From positions 1 through 64,000 of the forward strand of contig NZ_RAWE01000025.1 in assembly GCF_003611695.1 (NCBI RefSeq): a stretch of DNA of 64,000 nucleotides, written 5' to 3'. This document shows, one piece after another, positions 22,349 through 30,063 of the stretch (positions are counted from its first letter, which is position 1; every line of letters begins with the position of its first letter). The position numbers and the translations under genes were made by a program. A model generated the notes under the pieces. It did no database searches. It was not told the origin of the DNA and saw only the letters and a program-made list of their open reading frames with translations. Origin of the DNA: Corallococcus carmarthensis. Its GTDB lineage: Bacteria; Myxococcota; Myxococcia; Myxococcales; Myxococcaceae.

Positions 22349-22975
22349 CTAGGAGTGCTCCAGGACGACCCCCTCCACCACCTGGACCACGTCCACGCAC
22401 CGGTCGAGGGCCGTCTCCAGCAGGTCGTAGACCCCCTTCCACTTCATGACCGTGAGTGGGGGCAGGTCGCCGCGGAAGAGGCGGCCCAGGCCCGTGCCCA
22501 GCACCGTGTCTGCCTGGCCTCGCAGCCTCCGGAGCGCTTCACACCCCGTGAGGATGCGCTCGGGCTGCTTGATGGCGCGCAGGCACGTCACCACGTCGCG
22601 GACCTGTTCGGCGCACAGCATCAGCAGCCGCGCCAGCTCCGTGGCCTCCGGCAGGCACTCCGGCAGCTCGTACGCGTGCAGTCGCGAGCCAGCGGCGTGC
22701 GCGAGGTCCAGCACCCCGTCGATGCGGGACACGAGCGCGTGGATGTGGATGCGCTCGAAGGGGGTGATGAACTCGCGGTGGAGCCGGGTGAAGGCGGCCT
22801 TCGCCACCGCGTCGCCCCGGTGCTCCACGGCCTGGAGCGCCCGGACCCGGTCGCCCACGTCCCGGTAGTCGCTGAAGAGCGCGTGCAACAGGCGCGTGCC
22901 CTCCAGCGTGGTGGTGCACTGCGCGTCGAAGTCGTCGAAGAAGCCGTCCGACCTTGGCATCAGTCGCTGCAACAT
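22349..22975 (-). CDS. DUF47/PhoU-like family protein
   Basis: 208 aa all-helical protein. Blocks such as FFDDFDAQCTTTLEG, EHRGDAVAKAAFTRLHREFITPFERIHIHALVSRIDGVLD and a C-terminal VYDLLETALDRCVDV match the DUF47 (UPF0111) family, which is structurally related to PhoU and is usually linked to Pit-type phosphate transporters. No Pit gene is adjacent here. Instead it follows the DUF4956 gene by 31 nt as the apparent last or second-last gene of the CotH/VTC operon. This supports a phosphate theme for that operon. Confidence 0.88.
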   Translation of the reverse strand: MLQRLMPRSDGFFDDFDAQCTTTLEGTRLLHALFSDYRDVGDRVRALQAVEHRGDAVAKAAFTRLHREFITPFERIHIHALVSRIDGVLDLAHAAGSRLHAYELPECLPEATELARLLMLCAEQVRDVVTCLRAIKQPERILTGCEALRRLRGQADTVLGTGLGRLFRGDLPPLTVMKWKGVYDLLETALDRCVDVVQVVEGVVLEHS

Positions 22976-23006: not shown

Positions 23007-23675
23007 CTACTCGGGGTCGATGGAGGCTCCGCGCACGCCGGGCAGCGCGCCGCGCAGCTTCTCCAGGAGGAGGAAGGTGTCGGTGTGCTCCGGCACTGGC
23101 AGCTCCACCACGGCGGTGCCGCCCGGGGTGGCGTGGGCCTGCTCCAGGGTGAGCACGCGCGAATCGGGGTGCAGCAGGCGCAAGGGAGGCAGGGCGGCGC
23201 CCAGGTCCTCCACGTCCAGGGAGAGCTTCAGCCGCTGCGGGTGGCGCTGGAGGGTGGAGTCCAGCGCGAGCAGCACGGCCCCGAAGAACAGCGTGGCGCA
23301 CACGGCGATGGGGAATGCGCCCAGGCCGCAGGCCATGCCCACGCCAATCATCACGAACATCACCGCCGCGTCGCGTGAGTCCTTGATGCCGGAGCGGAAG
23401 CGGATGAAGCCGCCCAGGCCCACCAGTCCGAAGGCGCGCGACATGCTGTCGCCAATCACCGTGGACATCACCGCCCCCGCGATGGCGATGAGCAGCTGGG
23501 TGTGCATGGTCTCCTGCGCCATCACCGGCGCGCGCGGCATCCACCGCCGCCACGGCCGGAAGGCCAGCAGCGAGCCCAGCACCAGCGCGAAACCCAGCCG
23601 CTCCAGCACCTCCAGGAGCGGCAGCCCGTGCACGGACGCCTGCGCGCCCGCGTTGAAGACATCATGCGACGCCAT
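23007..23675 (-). CDS. DUF4956 / MgtC-like membrane protein
   Basis: 222 aa. Three or four membrane helices lie in the first half (about residues 25-42, 57-75, 98-135). The block GLVGLGGFIRFRSGIKDSRDAAVMFVMIGVGMACGLGAF is the DUF4956 hallmark and resembles MgtC/SapB. A soluble alpha/beta domain of about 80 residues follows (LLHPDSRVLTLEQ ... TFLLLEKLRGALPGV). DUF4956 genes often sit beside VTC polyphosphate polymerase and CotH genes in bacteria, as here. The first 14 nt overlap the end of the upstream kinase-repeat gene, so translation is probably coupled. Confidence 0.87.
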   Translation of the reverse strand: MASHDVFNAGAQASVHGLPLLEVLERLGFALVLGSLLAFRPWRRWMPRAPVMAQETMHTQLLIAIAGAVMSTVIGDSMSRAFGLVGLGGFIRFRSGIKDSRDAAVMFVMIGVGMACGLGAFPIAVCATLFFGAVLLALDSTLQRHPQRLKLSLDVEDLGAALPPLRLLHPDSRVLTLEQAHATPGGTAVVELPVPEHTDTFLLLEKLRGALPGVRGASIDPE

Positions 23676-25344
23676 GGCGAGGCTCCTCTTCCAGCTGCGA
23701 GGCCGTCCGCGCCGCCTGGCGCAGGAGGGCGAAGTCGTGGGGGTGACGTTCCAACAGCTCCAGCGTGAGGGCCTGGCCTCGCGCCGTCGCGGCGAGGAGG
23801 CCCAGGCTCTTCACGGTGGCGGAGGGCCAGGTGTCCGCGAGCACCGTGCGCAGCCTCCACGCGGCGGGCACGTCCATGCCGGTGAGCGAGTCCAGCACCT
23901 CCTCGCACGCCACGCCGAACGTCTCGCGCAGCTTCCACGCGGCGGGCACGTCCAGCCCGGTGAGCGAGCCGATGACCGCCTTGGGCGCGCGCGCCGCGTG
24001 CTGTTCGCGAAGGGCCCAGGCGCGGGGGCTGTCCAGGCCCTCCAACGAGCGCAGCACGGCGTCCGGTGCCACGGCCATCGCGCGCTCGCGCCACTCCCAC
24101 GCCCGCTCGCTGTCCACGCCCCGCAGCGAGCGGCACAGCGCCCGGGCCACGCCCTCGTCCGCGAAGGCCGCGTCGCCGCCGCGCGAGGACAGCCACCGCC
24201 AGCGCTCGTCCCAGGCCCGCGCGCTGTCCAGGCCGGAGAGCGACACCATCACCGGCTCCGGCGCGGTACGTGACAGCCGGTCGCGCATGAGCCAGGCGCG
24301 CTCGGAATCCAAACCCGTGAGCGACGCGGCCACGGCCTCCGGGGCCCGTGCCTCCCACCGCTCGCGCAGGTGCCAGGCTTCCGGCGTGTCGCTGGCGTCG
24401 TCGGTGAGGGACGCGAGCACGTGCTCGGGCGCGGCGGCCTCCAACCGGTGGCGCCATTCCCACGCCGCGGGGTGGGTGAGGCCAGCGAGCCCATGGGCGA
24501 TGAGCTCCGGGCATCGCTCCGCCAGCAGCGCGCGGCGCGCCTCGACGTCCTGTCCCTCCATGCCCGCGAGGAACCACGCGGCGAGGCCCGGCTCGTCCAC
24601 GGTCCAGCCATCCAGCCGGGCCAGGAACCGGCCGCGCGCCTCCGGCAGCGAGCGCACCGGGACGGTGGGGCGCGTCAGGCCCGCGTGGAAGAGGGGCGCT
24701 TCACCGCGGCGCGCGCGCAGCACGTCCTCCACCAGCCGCGTCACCTGCTCGTCCAGGGGCACGTCGGTGTTCTCGATGATGCTCCAGCGCTCCGGGCTCG
24801 CGACGGCCAGGGAGCGGTAGCCGGCGCGCAGGCGGGCCTGGAGGCCGGTGCCGGTGAGCCCCTTGCGCGACGGCGTGGAGCGGTCCTTCGCCAGCAGCTT
24901 GGACGCGCGGCGGCGGGCGCGGGCGATGGCGGGATCCACGTCGATGAGGAAGACGCGGTCCGGGTGCAGTCCGCGCTGGCAGGTATCCAGCACGGGCCGC
25001 ACCTCCGCTTCCGGCAGGCCCCGGCCGAAGCGGGCCAGCACCTCCGCGGTGTAGAGGAAGCGGTCGGCGATGACGACGTCGTGCTCCGCCAGCGCCGGCC
25101 GCGTCACCTCCTCCAGGAGCTGCGCCTCGCGCGCCGCGTACAGCAGCAGCTCCGCCACGGGGGTGAGCGCCAGGTGCAGCGGGTCGCGCGTGAAGCGCCG
25201 CAGCCCCTCCGACACGGGCGAGGCCAGCCGGCCGTCCTCGCGCACGTGGCGCACGGTGAGCCCGGCCCGGCGCAGCTCGCGCGCCACCCGGTTGGACAGC
25301 GTCGTCTTGCCCGACCCGTCGATTCCCTCGAACACGATGAACAT
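23662..25344 (-). CDS. tmk: Thymidylate-kinase-like protein fused to a tandem-repeat domain
   Basis: 560 aa, more than twice the normal dTMP kinase (about 210). Residues 1-215 carry the P-loop GIDGSGKTT (7-15), the VVIADRFLY DR motif and a basic LID-like region RARRRASKLLAKDRS. From about residue 250 to 515 there are about eight repeats of roughly 27 residues with consensus SLtGLDS.rAW..R......AP.aV, a two-helix pattern centred on an invariant Trp. I do not recognise the repeat family. ATG overlaps the stop of the porin gene by 1 nt, and the end overlaps the DUF4956 gene by 14 nt. Whether it makes dTDP or phosphorylates something else in this phosphate-linked operon is open. Confidence 0.85.
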   Translation of the reverse strand: MFIVFEGIDGSGKTTLSNRVARELRRAGLTVRHVREDGRLASPVSEGLRRFTRDPLHLALTPVAELLLYAAREAQLLEEVTRPALAEHDVVIADRFLYTAEVLARFGRGLPEAEVRPVLDTCQRGLHPDRVFLIDVDPAIARARRRASKLLAKDRSTPSRKGLTGTGLQARLRAGYRSLAVASPERWSIIENTDVPLDEQVTRLVEDVLRARRGEAPLFHAGLTRPTVPVRSLPEARGRFLARLDGWTVDEPGLAAWFLAGMEGQDVEARRALLAERCPELIAHGLAGLTHPAAWEWRHRLEAAAPEHVLASLTDDASDTPEAWHLRERWEARAPEAVAASLTGLDSERAWLMRDRLSRTAPEPVMVSLSGLDSARAWDERWRWLSSRGGDAAFADEGVARALCRSLRGVDSERAWEWRERAMAVAPDAVLRSLEGLDSPRAWALREQHAARAPKAVIGSLTGLDVPAAWKLRETFGVACEEVLDSLTGMDVPAAWRLRTVLADTWPSATVKSLGLLAATARGQALTLELLERHPHDFALLRQAARTASQLEEEPRHGVA

Positions 25345-26525
25345 CAGAAGGCGACCTCCATCTGCAGCAGCACGGCCTTGCGTGAAGCCAGGTTGTCCTC
25401 CAGGGACGTGACGACGGCGGGCACGGCGTCACCGGCCTTCCGCACCTCCGCCTGGGCCTGGAGGCGCCAGTGGCGGAACTGGCCGACGTTCAGGCCCAGC
25501 GCGCCCTCCCACACCAGGTCCTGGTGGAGCGTGCGGTCCGGATCCAACGCGGACAGCATCACGAAGGGCTCCACGAACAGCGCGCCCCGTGTCCCTCCGC
25601 CAATGCGCCAGCCGGTCAGCGCCCGCGCGGTGAGGAAGGGGCCCTCCAGGCCGGTGAGCAGCTCGGTGCGGCCCACCAGCACCTCGCCCCAGGTGCGCAG
25701 CGCGCCGCGCCCGATGGGCAGCTCGTGCTGGACGTCCAGTCCCGCCGTCCAGCCGGTGTGCGAGCCGCCGTCGATGGCGCCCGCGGGCTGGAGGAGCGCG
25801 GAGGCGCCCAGCTCCACGGTGCCCAGCGTGAGCGTGCCCCGGAAGGCAGGCACCACGCCCAGCCCCTTGGACAGGTCCACCTTGCCGGTGTCGTTGCCCG
25901 TCTGCCACACGCCCGCGCGCAGCTTCAGGTCCACCGCGCAGTCCTTGCACTTCCACTCCAGCTGGGCGCCGGGCCTGCGGCCGGTGAGCACCAGCGCGTC
26001 GCGCAGCACGTCCCGCAGGAGGCCCCGGCGCGCGAGCGGCAGCGACCGGGAGGATTCCAGCTCGATGAGTGACAGGGGGACCTTGAACTGGCCCGCGCGA
26101 ATGGCGAAGCCACGGGGCAGGTCCAGCCAGACGTAGGCGTCCTTGAGGCCGTCCTGCACGTCGAACTCGACCACCGCCTTGATCTTCTTCTTGAAGCGGT
26201 AGGTGGCCTCCAGGCGCGTCGCCGGCAATGACAGCCGTCCGGACCAGACCTTGTCCGGACGCGAGTCCACCGTCTCCCGCACCGACAGCCGGCCTCCCAC
26301 CTCGATGACGCCTGAGCCCGCGGGGAGCCGCACGGTGGGCGGTGGAAGGTCCGCTCCCGTGTCGTCGTCCGGCGGAGGCGGCTCGGCCACGGGGGTGGAA
26401 GGCGGCTCCGGCAGGGACTGCGCGGAGGGCGGAGGCGCGTCCGCGGGAGGGGCGGTGTCCGCTTGCCGCGCGTTCGCGGACGCGCAGAGCAGCAGTAAGG
26501 TCAGCAGCAGCCCGCGTGCGGGCAT
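25344..26525 (-). CDS. Outer-membrane porin resembling phosphate-selective OprO/OprP
   Basis: 393 aa. The signal peptide is at 1-19 (GLLLTLLLLCASANA). A Pro-rich linker follows (APPADAPPPSAQ, PPSTPVAEPPPPDDD), and then a barrel with strands such as RLEATYRFKKKIKAVVEFDVQDG and RGFAIRAGQFKVPLSLIELESSRSL, the latter typical of the OprO/OprP group. The C-terminal residue is Phe. The ATG at 26525 is chosen for the signal peptide; an open frame further upstream overlaps the VTC gene. It lies 61 nt after the VTC gene, and its TGA shares one base with the ATG of the next gene. Phosphate or polyphosphate passage is inferred from family and context. Confidence 0.78.
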   Translation of the reverse strand: MPARGLLLTLLLLCASANARQADTAPPADAPPPSAQSLPEPPSTPVAEPPPPDDDTGADLPPPTVRLPAGSGVIEVGGRLSVRETVDSRPDKVWSGRLSLPATRLEATYRFKKKIKAVVEFDVQDGLKDAYVWLDLPRGFAIRAGQFKVPLSLIELESSRSLPLARRGLLRDVLRDALVLTGRRPGAQLEWKCKDCAVDLKLRAGVWQTGNDTGKVDLSKGLGVVPAFRGTLTLGTVELGASALLQPAGAIDGGSHTGWTAGLDVQHELPIGRGALRTWGEVLVGRTELLTGLEGPFLTARALTGWRIGGGTRGALFVEPFVMLSALDPDRTLHQDLVWEGALGLNVGQFRHWRLQAQAEVRKAGDAVPAVVTSLEDNLASRKAVLLQMEVAF

Positions 26526-26586: not shown

Positions 26587-27354
26587 TCACTTCGTGGGAC
26601 GCGCGCCGTCCAGGAGCGCGTGCATGCCCTGCTCGAACTTCGAGGCGGCCGTCTCATGGGACGACAGCCCCCACAGCGCTTGCTCCAGCCAGGAGGGAGT
26701 GTCGCGCTTCCACTTCACCTCCACGACGGTCGCGGGCGGCGCCCGGCCCACGAGCCGCGTGGGGGCCGCGACCGCCGCGGCAGCGGGCGTGTCCGGTGGC
26801 TGCGCGAACACCAGCCCTTCATCCAGCGTGATGCGCACGTCGCAAGACACCGTGGCCAGCGTGGTCCGCCGGTACCACGCGGTGAGCCAGGGCCGCACCG
26901 GCATGAGGCTCGCCTGTCGCAGGAGCCGCGCGGCGGCGCCCTCCAGCGGCAGGGGCTGGCCCGTGAGGATCGCCCGGGCCTCCGGTTCGGTGAGGGACAG
27001 CCGGACCTTGGTGCGCCGCTCGCCGTGGTTGCGCTTCAGCTCCAGGAAGCGCGTCCCCGTCAGCACCGGCGCCTCCGCGAGGTGGGCCGCGCCCGCGTAC
27101 TCCCGCAGGCGCAGCCGCTCCGCCTGGCCCGAATGACACGTGCCCAGGAAATCCAGGCCCTCGGTGTCCAGGTAGGTCGTGCGCGTGTAGGCCACGGGAA
27201 GGCCCGGGTCGTAGAGGTGGCGGGACGTCCAACCCTGGATGGCGCTCAGGAAGGCCGCCAGCGCGTCACGCGACGGTTGGAAGCGCCGCTCCCGGTCCTG
27301 CTCCGCGCAAGGCGCGGGCCTGTCCTCGTCCTGCACCCGGGCCGTCGCGCTCAT
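26587..27354 (-). CDS. VTC-domain polyphosphate polymerase family protein
   Basis: 255 aa, the size of the catalytic VTC (triphosphate tunnel metalloenzyme) domain. Segments that line the tunnel can be followed: ERRFQ, YTRTTYLDTEGLDFL, RLRLREY, FLELKRNHGERRTKVRLSL, CDVRITLDEGL and TVVEVKWK. These supply the alternating Arg/Lys and Glu residues that bind phosphate chains and metal. Family members make polyphosphate from ATP. It starts with ATG overlapping the CotH stop (ATGA). Eukaryotic VTC complexes act at membranes; here the DUF4956 protein of the same operon is the likely membrane partner (inference). Confidence 0.85.
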   Translation of the reverse strand: MSATARVQDEDRPAPCAEQDRERRFQPSRDALAAFLSAIQGWTSRHLYDPGLPVAYTRTTYLDTEGLDFLGTCHSGQAERLRLREYAGAAHLAEAPVLTGTRFLELKRNHGERRTKVRLSLTEPEARAILTGQPLPLEGAAARLLRQASLMPVRPWLTAWYRRTTLATVSCDVRITLDEGLVFAQPPDTPAAAAVAAPTRLVGRAPPATVVEVKWKRDTPSWLEQALWGLSSHETAASKFEQGMHALLDGARPTK

Positions 27355-28955
27355 GGGCTCGTACCGAAGGCCGCGTGCACCTCGGCCTGTCGCTTCGTCG
27401 CGAAGTCCACCAGGCCGTTGGCGCCGGTGAGCGCCTCCTGGAACGCCTGCGGGCTGCTCAGGAACGTGAAGCCCGCCTGCTCCGCGTTCTCACCCACCAC
27501 CCACGGGGTGACGAGCGCGTGCTCCTCGCGGAAGCGCGCCTCCAGGGGACCGGGGGCGAGCAGGCCGTCCACGGCCTCCAGCGCGTACTTCTCGTAGACG
27601 GGCCGGTAGGTGGGGTCGTCCATCAGGTAGCGGATGAGCGGCCAGGTCGCGTCCACCGACTCCTGCGAGAGCGACGTGGCGCGCATGCCGTCCTGGAACG
27701 ACCGGTCATGGTCCCACGTCACCCAGTGCAGCCGGCCGTTCTCCCCCGGATGCGAATACAGGAGGTAGTTGTGGGCCATGCCCCCGTACGCATCCCAGTT
27801 CTCGATGACGGTGTTGTAGGCCAGCCACTTGAGGAAGCCGTCCACGTCCAGCGTCGCCTCCAGCCGCGAGCGCCACGCGACGGAGTCCGCGCGGTCCGAA
27901 TTGAGCGCGGTGATGAGCGCCTGCACGCTGCCCCAGCCCGCCGCCTCCGCCGCCTTGTTGTCCGGCTCGAAGGAGGCCTCGTCGAAGGTCTGGAGCCGCG
28001 CGCCGGTGCCGTCCGCCTCGTAGATCGGACCGCTGTCGTCGCCGAAGGAGCGCTCGAGCAGCGGATCCCCCGGATCCTCCGCCAGCGTGTAGAGGCCCCA
28101 GTACTGGGGGCCGTCGCCGTGGTCCAGGTAGACGGCCGCGAAGGCGGTGTAGCTGGCCGGGACGCCCGCCTCGCGGAACAGGTCCGTGGCCACCTTGTTG
28201 CGGACGAGCGACGCGTCCGCCACCGCGTTGGACAGCGACAGCTTGCCGAAGCCGTAGAAGTGCTGGCCCTCGATTTCAGGGTGCGCATCCTCGAACTTGT
28301 CGAAGTTGAAGCGCAGCGGCATCTTGCCCACGCCGCTCCGCCACGCCTGGGACAGCGACGAGTTGCCCTTGTAGCGAAGCCCCACGTGGTTCCATGACTT
28401 GCCCTCGAACTTCACCGTCGCGGGCACGTACACCGGCGTGTTGGGGAGGAGGTCGCCCGCGCCACCGCCGCCCGGATCCAGCCCGCCGCCGTCGGGACGT
28501 CCGCCGGGGCCTCCACCGCCCATCGTCGGCAGGCACGCGAGCGCGCCGCCCATGGGGGACGTGGCGCAGGTGCTGGTGAAGGTGGTTCCGTTGAAGGTGA
28601 CGGTGCAGGCCTCACCGGCCGCCTTGCCCACGCACGCGGCCTCGAACTCCGCGGGGAATCCCCCGCCACCCCCCAGGCCACCGTCCGGAGGCCCACCGGG
28701 TCCGACGCCTCCACCCGCGCCGAACTCGCCGAGCATGGATGTCATGTCGTCCTGCATCGTCGTCCAGTCCTCGGATGTGACGACGATGTCCAGGCGCTGC
28801 ACCTTTCCCTTGGGAAAGACGACGTCGTAGGCCGGTGGAGCGTTCTTCCCGTGCGAGGCGTCGGTCCAGGTGTCGGGGCGGTCGCTGCCACAGGCGCCAA
28901 GGACGAACGCCAACAACGCGAAGGCGCCGGACAGGCGCGGACGAGGCAAGGCCAT
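27351..28955 (-). CDS. CotH-kinase-family lipoprotein with 4-Cys insertion
   Basis: 534 aa. The lipoprotein signal ALLAFVLGACGS places the acyl Cys at residue 21. The CotH domain shows LDIVVTSEDW near the start, VGLRYKGNSSL, KLSLSNAVADASLVRNKVA, NWDAYGGMAHNYLLY and the metal-binding VTWDHDRSF. CotH proteins are atypical kinases that phosphorylate proteins. Between about residues 78 and 165 is an insert: two Gly/Pro-rich linkers enclosing a four-Cys module (ACVGKAAGEACTV ... STCATSP ... LACLP). It is the first gene of the operon; its TGA overlaps the ATG of the VTC gene. The start at 28955 is chosen for the signal peptide. Confidence 0.87.
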   Translation of the reverse strand: MALPRPRLSGAFALLAFVLGACGSDRPDTWTDASHGKNAPPAYDVVFPKGKVQRLDIVVTSEDWTTMQDDMTSMLGEFGAGGGVGPGGPPDGGLGGGGGFPAEFEAACVGKAAGEACTVTFNGTTFTSTCATSPMGGALACLPTMGGGGPGGRPDGGGLDPGGGGAGDLLPNTPVYVPATVKFEGKSWNHVGLRYKGNSSLSQAWRSGVGKMPLRFNFDKFEDAHPEIEGQHFYGFGKLSLSNAVADASLVRNKVATDLFREAGVPASYTAFAAVYLDHGDGPQYWGLYTLAEDPGDPLLERSFGDDSGPIYEADGTGARLQTFDEASFEPDNKAAEAAGWGSVQALITALNSDRADSVAWRSRLEATLDVDGFLKWLAYNTVIENWDAYGGMAHNYLLYSHPGENGRLHWVTWDHDRSFQDGMRATSLSQESVDATWPLIRYLMDDPTYRPVYEKYALEAVDGLLAPGPLEARFREEHALVTPWVVGENAEQAGFTFLSSPQAFQEALTGANGLVDFATKRQAEVHAAFGTSP

Positions 28956-28986
28956 GGGTATCCCTTTTCGGGTGCGGGGGTTCACG

Positions 28987-29016
28987 GCCACGGCGGAGCG
29001 GGGTCTCCGCCGTGGC
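28987..29016 (-). terminator. 12-bp-stem hairpin in the CotH operon leader
   Basis: GCCACGGCGGAG at 28987-28998 pairs perfectly with CTCCGCCGTGGC at 29005-29016 around a 6-nt loop. It is 31 nt upstream of the CotH start. It could terminate transcripts from the GIY-YIG gene, or act as a leader structure or operator for the CotH operon. There is no T-tract on either side. Confidence 0.45.
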
Positions 29017-29040
29017 ACTGCGATTGCGGACCTTGAAGGG

Positions 29041-29123: not shown

Positions 29124-29504
29124 TCAGGGGCCGGGCGGTGGATTGTAGCCGGCGTCGCCGTAGGGCTTCAGGCGCTCCAGCCACATCTCCTCCAGCACCT
29201 TCAACTCCTCCAGGGGCGGAGGGCCGCCGGGCTCCTCACGGGGTGGCAGCTTGTCCAGCACCTCGAAGGAGAAGGATGCCTCGCCGTAGCGCTCCCAGTC
29301 CGCCTGCAATTCGGGGACGCGGTGCATGCGCTGGGCGAACTCGAACCGGATGCGGTTGAACATCGCGGTCAGGTTGAGGGCGTGGTGCACGAAGAGCTTG
29401 CCGTTGGCGTGGCAGCGGATGGCGTAGATGCCCATGGGCACCTCCGCTTCCTTGTACGCGCGCTTGCGTTCGGCGCGGGACGCGCGCGAGTCGTCACCGG
29501 ACAT
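29124..29504 (-). CDS. GIY-YIG nuclease-family protein
   Basis: 126 aa. The N-terminus is charged, followed by GIYAIRCHANGKLFV at about residues 25-39, which matches the first strands of a GIY-YIG fold, then LNLTAMFNRIRFEF. A late EEMWLERLKPYGDAGYN supplies the expected Glu and the NPP end. The YIG half is replaced by AIR, and the usual Gly-Ser/Arg after FV is HHA, so catalytic activity is uncertain. The start overlaps the end of the upstream gene by 11 nt, so the pair is coupled. Confidence 0.7.
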   Translation of the reverse strand: MSGDDSRASRAERKRAYKEAEVPMGIYAIRCHANGKLFVHHALNLTAMFNRIRFEFAQRMHRVPELQADWERYGEASFSFEVLDKLPPREEPGGPPPLEELKVLEEMWLERLKPYGDAGYNPPPGP

Positions 29505-30063
29505 GGTGGCCTCCGTAGCCCAGCGCGACGAGCTTCGCTTCCAGCCGCTCCTTCGCGGCCACGTCGCGGGGGCGCACCCAGTCGCGGCCCATGCGTTCCC
29601 AGTCCGCGTCCCTCGGGTCGGCTCCCAGCGCCTGGACGAAGTCGGCCTCGCAGACGAAGCACTGGTCGCGGAAGGGGAAGAGGAAGCCGCCCTGCGCCTC
29701 CAGCGACTGCGCGGCCTCCGCGTAGGTGGAGAACCACCGGTTGAGGAACACGGCCTGGACCTTCTGGAAGAAGGCGCGCGGGTCCAGCTTTCGCGCACCG
29801 CCCTCCAGGGCCTGCTTCAGGTCCGCCCAGGTGGCGTGGCCGGCCTCCCGCGCGATGACGGCGAGCCCGTGTTTGTGTTGCACGGTGTCCCGGCGCGCGA
29901 GCACCTCGCCCAGGGGCAGGGCCGCGAAGAAGGGCAGGGCGCGCATCCGCTCCGCGGCGCGCGTGGCGCGGGCGGCGTCGGACGAGTCCAGGTCCTTGAT
30001 GAGCAGGGACGCGCGGACCTTGTATTCATGAAGTGTGACGGGGAGGGTGCTGCCGGTTCCCAT
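29494..30063 (-). CDS. Conserved hypothetical protein paired with GIY-YIG gene
   Basis: 189 aa, cytosolic and mainly helical, not assigned. Recognisable stretches are LHEYKVRASLLIKDLDSSDAARATRAAERMRALP, which reads as a DNA- or RNA-associated helical start, and REAGHATWADLKQALEGG. The segment FLFPFRDQCFVCEADFVQALGADP contains two Cys. The ATG at 30063 has GGAGG 7 nt upstream, which sets the start. It overlaps the GIY-YIG gene by 11 nt. Confidence 0.7.
   Translation of the reverse strand: MGTGSTLPVTLHEYKVRASLLIKDLDSSDAARATRAAERMRALPFFAALPLGEVLARRDTVQHKHGLAVIAREAGHATWADLKQALEGGARKLDPRAFFQKVQAVFLNRWFSTYAEAAQSLEAQGGFLFPFRDQCFVCEADFVQALGADPRDADWERMGRDWVRPRDVAAKERLEAKLVALGYGGHHVR

Follow-up and report, generated by a model that had tools for sequence, protein, structure and literature searches.

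A thymidylate kinase-like domain fused to a 27-residue tandem repeat and linked to VTC and DUF4956 genes in Myxococcota

Why should a protein that resembles a thymidylate kinase (TMK) lie in an operon with CotH and VTC genes, and is dTMP still its substrate? The question is raised by a 64,000-nucleotide stretch of DNA from Corallococcus carmarthensis (contig NZ_RAWE01000025.1, here called the window), in which an open reading frame of 560 codons' worth of protein (560 aa) occupies exactly positions 23662-25344 of the minus strand. Its N-terminal part, residues ~1-215 (24700..25344, minus strand), is a TMK-type P-loop kinase domain, as judged by comparison of its columns with ordinary TMKs and by the Pfam Thymidylate_kin model (PF02223), which matches residues 5-153 with E=1.4e-20 and 74.2 bits, above the curated cut-off of 27. 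The NCBIfam dTMP-kinase model (TIGR00041, cut-off 83.25 bits) gives 86.6 bits for the window protein and 85-99 bits for the set formed with nine further fusions, all nine of nine scanned lying above the cut-off; with this model the ordinary tmk of the genome reaches 163 bits. Relatives of the kinase part in the PDB are TMKs, and its motifs comprise the P-loop GIDGSGKTT, a DRF motif and the basic LID SRKGLTGTG. The remainder, residues ~266-544 (23713..24549, minus strand), carries 9-10 copies of a 27-residue repeat, defined by autocorrelation, a repeat HMM, and register and column frequencies. A fusion of a dTMP-kinase fold to a repeat had been proposed in an earlier note made from the letters alone, and the Pfam match and the 27-residue periodicity bear it out. 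A homologue in Corallococcus sp. AS-1-6 shares 95% identity with the fusion protein over its length.

The gene block around the fusion, all on the minus strand, begins with a CotH-type kinase (27351..29018; PF08757, E=1.5e-56) and continues with a VTC-domain protein related to yeast Vtc4, a polyphosphate polymerase (26587..27354; PF09359, E=2.5e-17), an outer-membrane porin of the phosphate-selective O/P family (25344..26525; PF07396, E=2.8e-8; signal peptide recognised by eye, inner start putative), the fusion itself and a DUF4956/MgtC-like membrane protein (23007..23675; PF16316, E=7.8e-10; MgtC, E=3.4e-5). The CotH and VTC genes overlap by ATGA, the porin stop and the fusion start by TGATG, and the fusion end and the DUF4956 start by 14 bases; such overlapping or nearly overlapping genes are as expected of one operon. 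The CotH/VTC operon context described earlier is real in the window by these Pfam matches, and it is conserved in relatives. The next gene downstream encodes a phosphate-related PhoU_div (DUF47) protein (22349..22975, minus strand; PF01865, E=6.3e-14) and is a conserved neighbour in some relatives only. Upstream of CotH, 29124-29798 (minus strand) encodes a 224-aa protein with a below-cut-off match to group I intron endonucleases (TIGR01453, E=2.6e-5). Phosphate is a recurring theme among the neighbours, with VTC, the O/P porin and PhoU_div in the window, and a Na/Pi cotransporter and a purple-acid-phosphatase-like gene in relatives. In one relative (L116:10356-12999) the genes after the operon encode an unknown protein and a PKD-domain phosphoesterase that resembles purple acid phosphatases. 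The VTC family profile matches yeast Vtc4 at 6e-14 with the tunnel residues conserved, and twenty residues are invariant in all 12 VTC proteins of fusion loci, including Arg, Lys and Glu positions that align with Vtc4.

Of 195 Myxococcota genomes searched across the phylum, 75 carry the fusion. There are two groups: the window type occurs in 22 genomes, all of which also carry a second, more widespread type. Of the 98 fusion matches, 90 are preceded on their own strand by a VTC gene, at a distance of 42-55 bp (70 matches) or of 1.16-1.34 kb with the porin between (20 matches). Fusion and VTC co-occur by genome (70/5/24/96; Fisher p=8e-26, uncorrected for phylogeny and counted over related genomes). 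Among the remaining eight matches, two are fragments that lie at contig ends or belong to a broken copy, another two have their matching VTC on a separate contig, and for at least one of the eight the VTC gene fell short of the search cut-off; for the G032 copy, where the search gave no VTC, a direct scan found one. Window-type fusion and matching VTC lie on different contigs in L131 (G126:C112) and in G101:C7, and the operon may be split in these two genomes. The partner genes persist although their order varies across lineages, from CotH-VTC-porin-fusion-DUF4956 and porin-VTC-fusion-DUF4956 to porin-fusion-VTC-Na/Pi cotransporter (metagenome assemblies L010 and L011) and PelF-PelG-DUF4956-fusion. 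The last order, with PelF (PF11997), PelG (PF16933), DUF4956 and the fusion in a row, is found in Myxococcales UBA2376 (L009:3392-8722) and Kofleriaceae MAG_26 (L012:269-4640), and no VTC was detected near the fusion in either. All fusion kinases fall into a single clade (100/100) that has a stem of 1.69 changes per column and is distinct from the short TMKs of their hosts, and the grouping of this clade with other bacterial TMKs has moderate support only. In a scan of a genome collection, which reaches close relatives only, full-length fusions appeared solely in records labelled Myxococcota and in one MAG labelled just Proteobacteria (L011).

The active site bears on whether dTMP is still the acceptor. 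In M. tuberculosis TMK, Asp9 contacts the ribose and Arg95 the phosphate and base, Phe70 stacks on the thymine, Arg74 and Asn100 hydrogen-bond to it, and Tyr103 is nearby (PMC3619541). A MAFFT alignment of 44 distinct fusions, read against this published list of contacts for one enzyme, shows the P-loop (Walker) Lys, Asp9, Arg49 and Arg95 to be invariant in all 44, and the LID Arg/Lys are likewise invariant. ATP binding and sugar-phosphate chemistry therefore look intact, and the catalytic residues suggest an active phosphotransferase. The thymine contacts are replaced: the Arg74 position is Glu or Asp, the Tyr103 position Leu or His, and the Asn100/Ser position Ala, Gln or Pro in 44/44, while the Phe70 position is Tyr or Asn in 43 and Phe in one. 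At these positions the ordinary short TMKs of the phylum have retained Arg, Tyr-Gln and Phe/Tyr. The LID of the fusions is longer than in the short TMKs, reads RKGLxGxG in every one of the 44 and has a mean net charge of +8.1, against +2.3 for 41 short TMKs. The altered base site and the basic LID point to a changed acceptor, probably a more acidic one, and the best reading of the residues is a TMK-derived enzyme that would no longer use dTMP. The earlier suggestion that this protein is not devoted to routine dTTP synthesis is supported by the loss of the thymine-contact residues; the regulatory or assembly role proposed with it is only conjectural. Counting against a non-dTMP acceptor, the fusions still fall just above the NCBI dTMP-kinase cut-off.

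Self-similarity within the C-terminal part of the window protein peaks at exactly 27 residues (mean BLOSUM62 +0.18 vs -0.32 for the best of 1000 shuffles), and a repeat model trained on relatives with the window protein left out recovers nine copies, eight at 9.7-32.8 bits and one at 3.1, where the best of 200 shuffled sequences reached 7.1 bits. A tenth, degenerate copy follows the nine by eye. The repeat noticed earlier was thus correctly seen, but the estimate of about eight copies in the C-terminal 270 residues, at 250-515, was too low in number and misplaced in span. Eight copies in 44 homologues give a consensus of approximately D-S-P/E-R-A-W-A-L-R-E-R-L...A-P-E-A-V-L-x-S-L-x-G-L. Over the same eight copies x 44 homologues, the most conserved residues are Arg at position 9 (99%), Ala 5 (84%), Trp 6 (79%), Leu 24 (71%), Leu 8 (70%) and Val 20 (67%), and Asp also ranks high, after the Arg and the Ala-Trp pair; the AW pair that had been called invariant along with GLDS is indeed well conserved, but the most invariant residue is the Arg. 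An insertion of about 11 residues in one copy, also reported before, is real and follows residue ~390, where successive copies start at 373 and 411 (27+11), and a second copy has two extra residues. Each unit has a Pro near its middle, Asp-Ser breaks at its ends and amphipathic stretches on either side, which suggests two short helices per unit, and a two-helix solenoid or helical scaffold is the most likely fold.

The repeat had been described as unfamiliar, and neither Pfam nor NCBIfam offers a credible model for it: when the region was scanned by itself, and within the window protein and nine relatives, these two collections gave only scattered weak matches. Membership of a known family such as HEAT or Sel1, named in the earlier note as what would speak against novelty, was looked for by genome-wide searches and hhalign and was not found for either of these two. 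HEAT_2 has 95 matches in the genome and Sel1 eight, none of them on the fusion gene, and hhalign with 44 homologues gave 0.1% for each. A weak profile match to FliG in the PDB, over residues ~277-430 (E 0.02-0.05), could at best hint at an ARM-like fold. The helical repeats of the FliG middle domain and the MgtE N-domain resemble the fusion in their Leu/Pro spacing, but the kinship did not stand up in hhalign, which with 44 homologues gave 3% for FliG and 0.3% for MgtE_N. In the window copy the repeat domain has an acidic net charge of -11, and in most copies it is acidic or neutral, so polyphosphate binding by the repeat itself is unlikely. The idea of the repeat as a polyphosphate-binding Arg ladder is weakened accordingly, and the conserved Arg is as likely to be structural.

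Taken together, the most economical reading, to which a probability of roughly 0.55 is assigned, is that the fusion is a TMK-derived phosphotransferase with an acceptor other than dTMP, docked by its repeat scaffold to a VTC/DUF4956 phosphate-polymer machine, as the phosphate theme among its neighbours suggests. A thymidylate kinase would have been recruited early in the Myxococcota, losing its thymine-recognition site, gaining a basic LID and being joined to the 27-residue repeat. The fusion would act in the cytoplasm with the Vtc4-like VTC polymerase and the membrane protein DUF4956, where a phosphate-containing polymer would be made or moved, and the O/P-type porin would serve the outer membrane. 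The kinase domain would bind ATP at its P-loop and pass phosphate to or from the acceptor, for which the candidates are the end of a polyphosphate chain, a different nucleotide, or a phosphorylated lipid or sugar, while the repeat would dock the kinase on partner proteins. A narrower version, in which the phosphate moves to or from the polyphosphate, or other phospho-polymer, of a bacterial VTC polymerase and a new solenoid repeat is the adaptor, is a tentative proposal and on balance an unlikely one. The genome also holds PPK1 and two PPK2 genes, the latter at other loci according to a search of the genome itself, and VTC may therefore serve a purpose other than bulk polyphosphate synthesis. 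Furthermore, the Pel genes beside the fusions in L009 and L012 argue against polyphosphate as the polymer and point to exopolysaccharide, and a copy in G157 that sits beside unrelated genes, with neither VTC nor DUF4956 adjoining, also counts against the most economical reading.

The Pel connection has a precedent, as the CotH-VTC-DUF4956 trio is reported beside Gram-positive Pel clusters (PMC7112168). The likeness lies in the neighbours, CotH, a polyphosphate polymerase (VTC) and DUF4956, and in the two assemblies with PelF and PelG by DUF4956 and the fusion. In contrast, the excerpted text of that report mentions no TMK-like kinase, and the myxobacterial loci add the porin and the fusion. 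Beyond this suggested link to Pel polysaccharide, the literature search found no function for the VTC-CotH-DUF4956 trio, and it returned no paper on a kinase-repeat fusion.

Rather unlikely is the alternative in which the kinase fold serves as a sensor or switch, binding nucleotide or polyphosphate with no turnover while the repeat relays its state to VTC/DUF4956 or Pel proteins. It would suit a long scaffold that is always attached (no convincing kinase-free repeat was found in 195 Myxococcota genomes, bar marginal partial matches, and none in plasmids or phages), the altered acceptor site, and the position of PelF, PelG and DUF4956 ahead of the fusion in L009 and L012; however, invariance of the P-loop, Asp9, Arg95 and LID Arg/Lys usually reflects catalysis.

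A special case of the preferred phosphotransferase reading, equally hard to favour, is a PPK2-like enzyme arisen anew that would move phosphate between polyphosphate and a nucleotide. PPK2 (PF03976) has ancestry and fold in common with TMKs and holds polyphosphate by basic lid residues (PMC8776046), and the fusion resembles it in its TMK-like fold, its strongly basic LID and its phosphate-polymer context beside VTC. At the sequence level, however, the fusion lacks a match to the family, PF03976 being absent among the families listed at E<=10 in a Pfam scan of ten fusions, and two ordinary PPK2 genes are already present elsewhere in the genome.

The search for TMK-type genes elsewhere in the genome bears on the housekeeping role. 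The set comprises a short 218-aa tmk on contig C344 (E=1.6e-42), the window fusion, a second fusion on C237 and a remote dNK-like gene. The second fusion shares 41% identity with the first and has its own operon with porin, VTC and DUF4956 (L002/L115, the latter being C237:1-8465). A second, normal tmk, which the earlier note had proposed to look for, is therefore present, and the fusion is not the sole tmk of the genome. The short protein carries the usual thymine motifs, and its Walker A Lys is replaced by Thr (GLDGAGTTTQ; L001:1456-2112, C344:48157-48723). The same change is found in 35 of 41 sampled Myxococcota short TMKs, fusion-free genomes included. In fusion-free genomes this variant has no other strong TMK match beside it, so it presumably works by itself, and the idea that the short tmk is dead and replaced by the fusion was rejected. 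When 15 other fusion genomes were checked, 13 were seen to have an ordinary short tmk; as to the two exceptions, G157 carries a further TMK-like gene, and the G110 assembly is fragmented and 93% complete. A functional spare dTMP kinase, or a broad dNMP kinase, feeding dTTP or another NDP and merely localised by its repeat, could explain why all ten fusions scanned pass the NCBIfam cut-off and why an intact P-loop might be useful beside the Lys-to-Thr tmk, but it is improbable given the altered thymine contacts in every fusion, the far higher score of the ordinary tmk, the presumed self-sufficiency of the Lys-to-Thr enzyme, and a VTC linkage that a housekeeping role leaves unexplained.

With bacterial Tmk (PF02223/TIGR00041) the fusion shares the P-loop, the DR(F/Y) motif, the catalytic Asp and Arg and the overall domain, whereas the replaced thymine contacts, basic RKGLxGxG LID, repeat domain, VTC linkage and separate tmk in the genome distinguish it. 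There is a naming trap here, in that the thymine site is gone yet the NCBI dTMP-kinase cut-off is passed, and several 'tmk' genes per genome may be annotated automatically. If the narrower version, with a chain made by VTC as donor or acceptor, is true, TMK-fold enzymes would have entered phosphate-polymer chemistry by a further, independent route besides the earlier one of PPK2, and bacterial VTC/CotH/DUF4956 systems would have a subunit that has so far escaped notice. The 27-residue repeat would count as a new domain family. Conserved and, to judge from its residues, apparently catalytic, the fusion offers a handle on the VTC-CotH-DUF4956 system in culturable myxobacteria.
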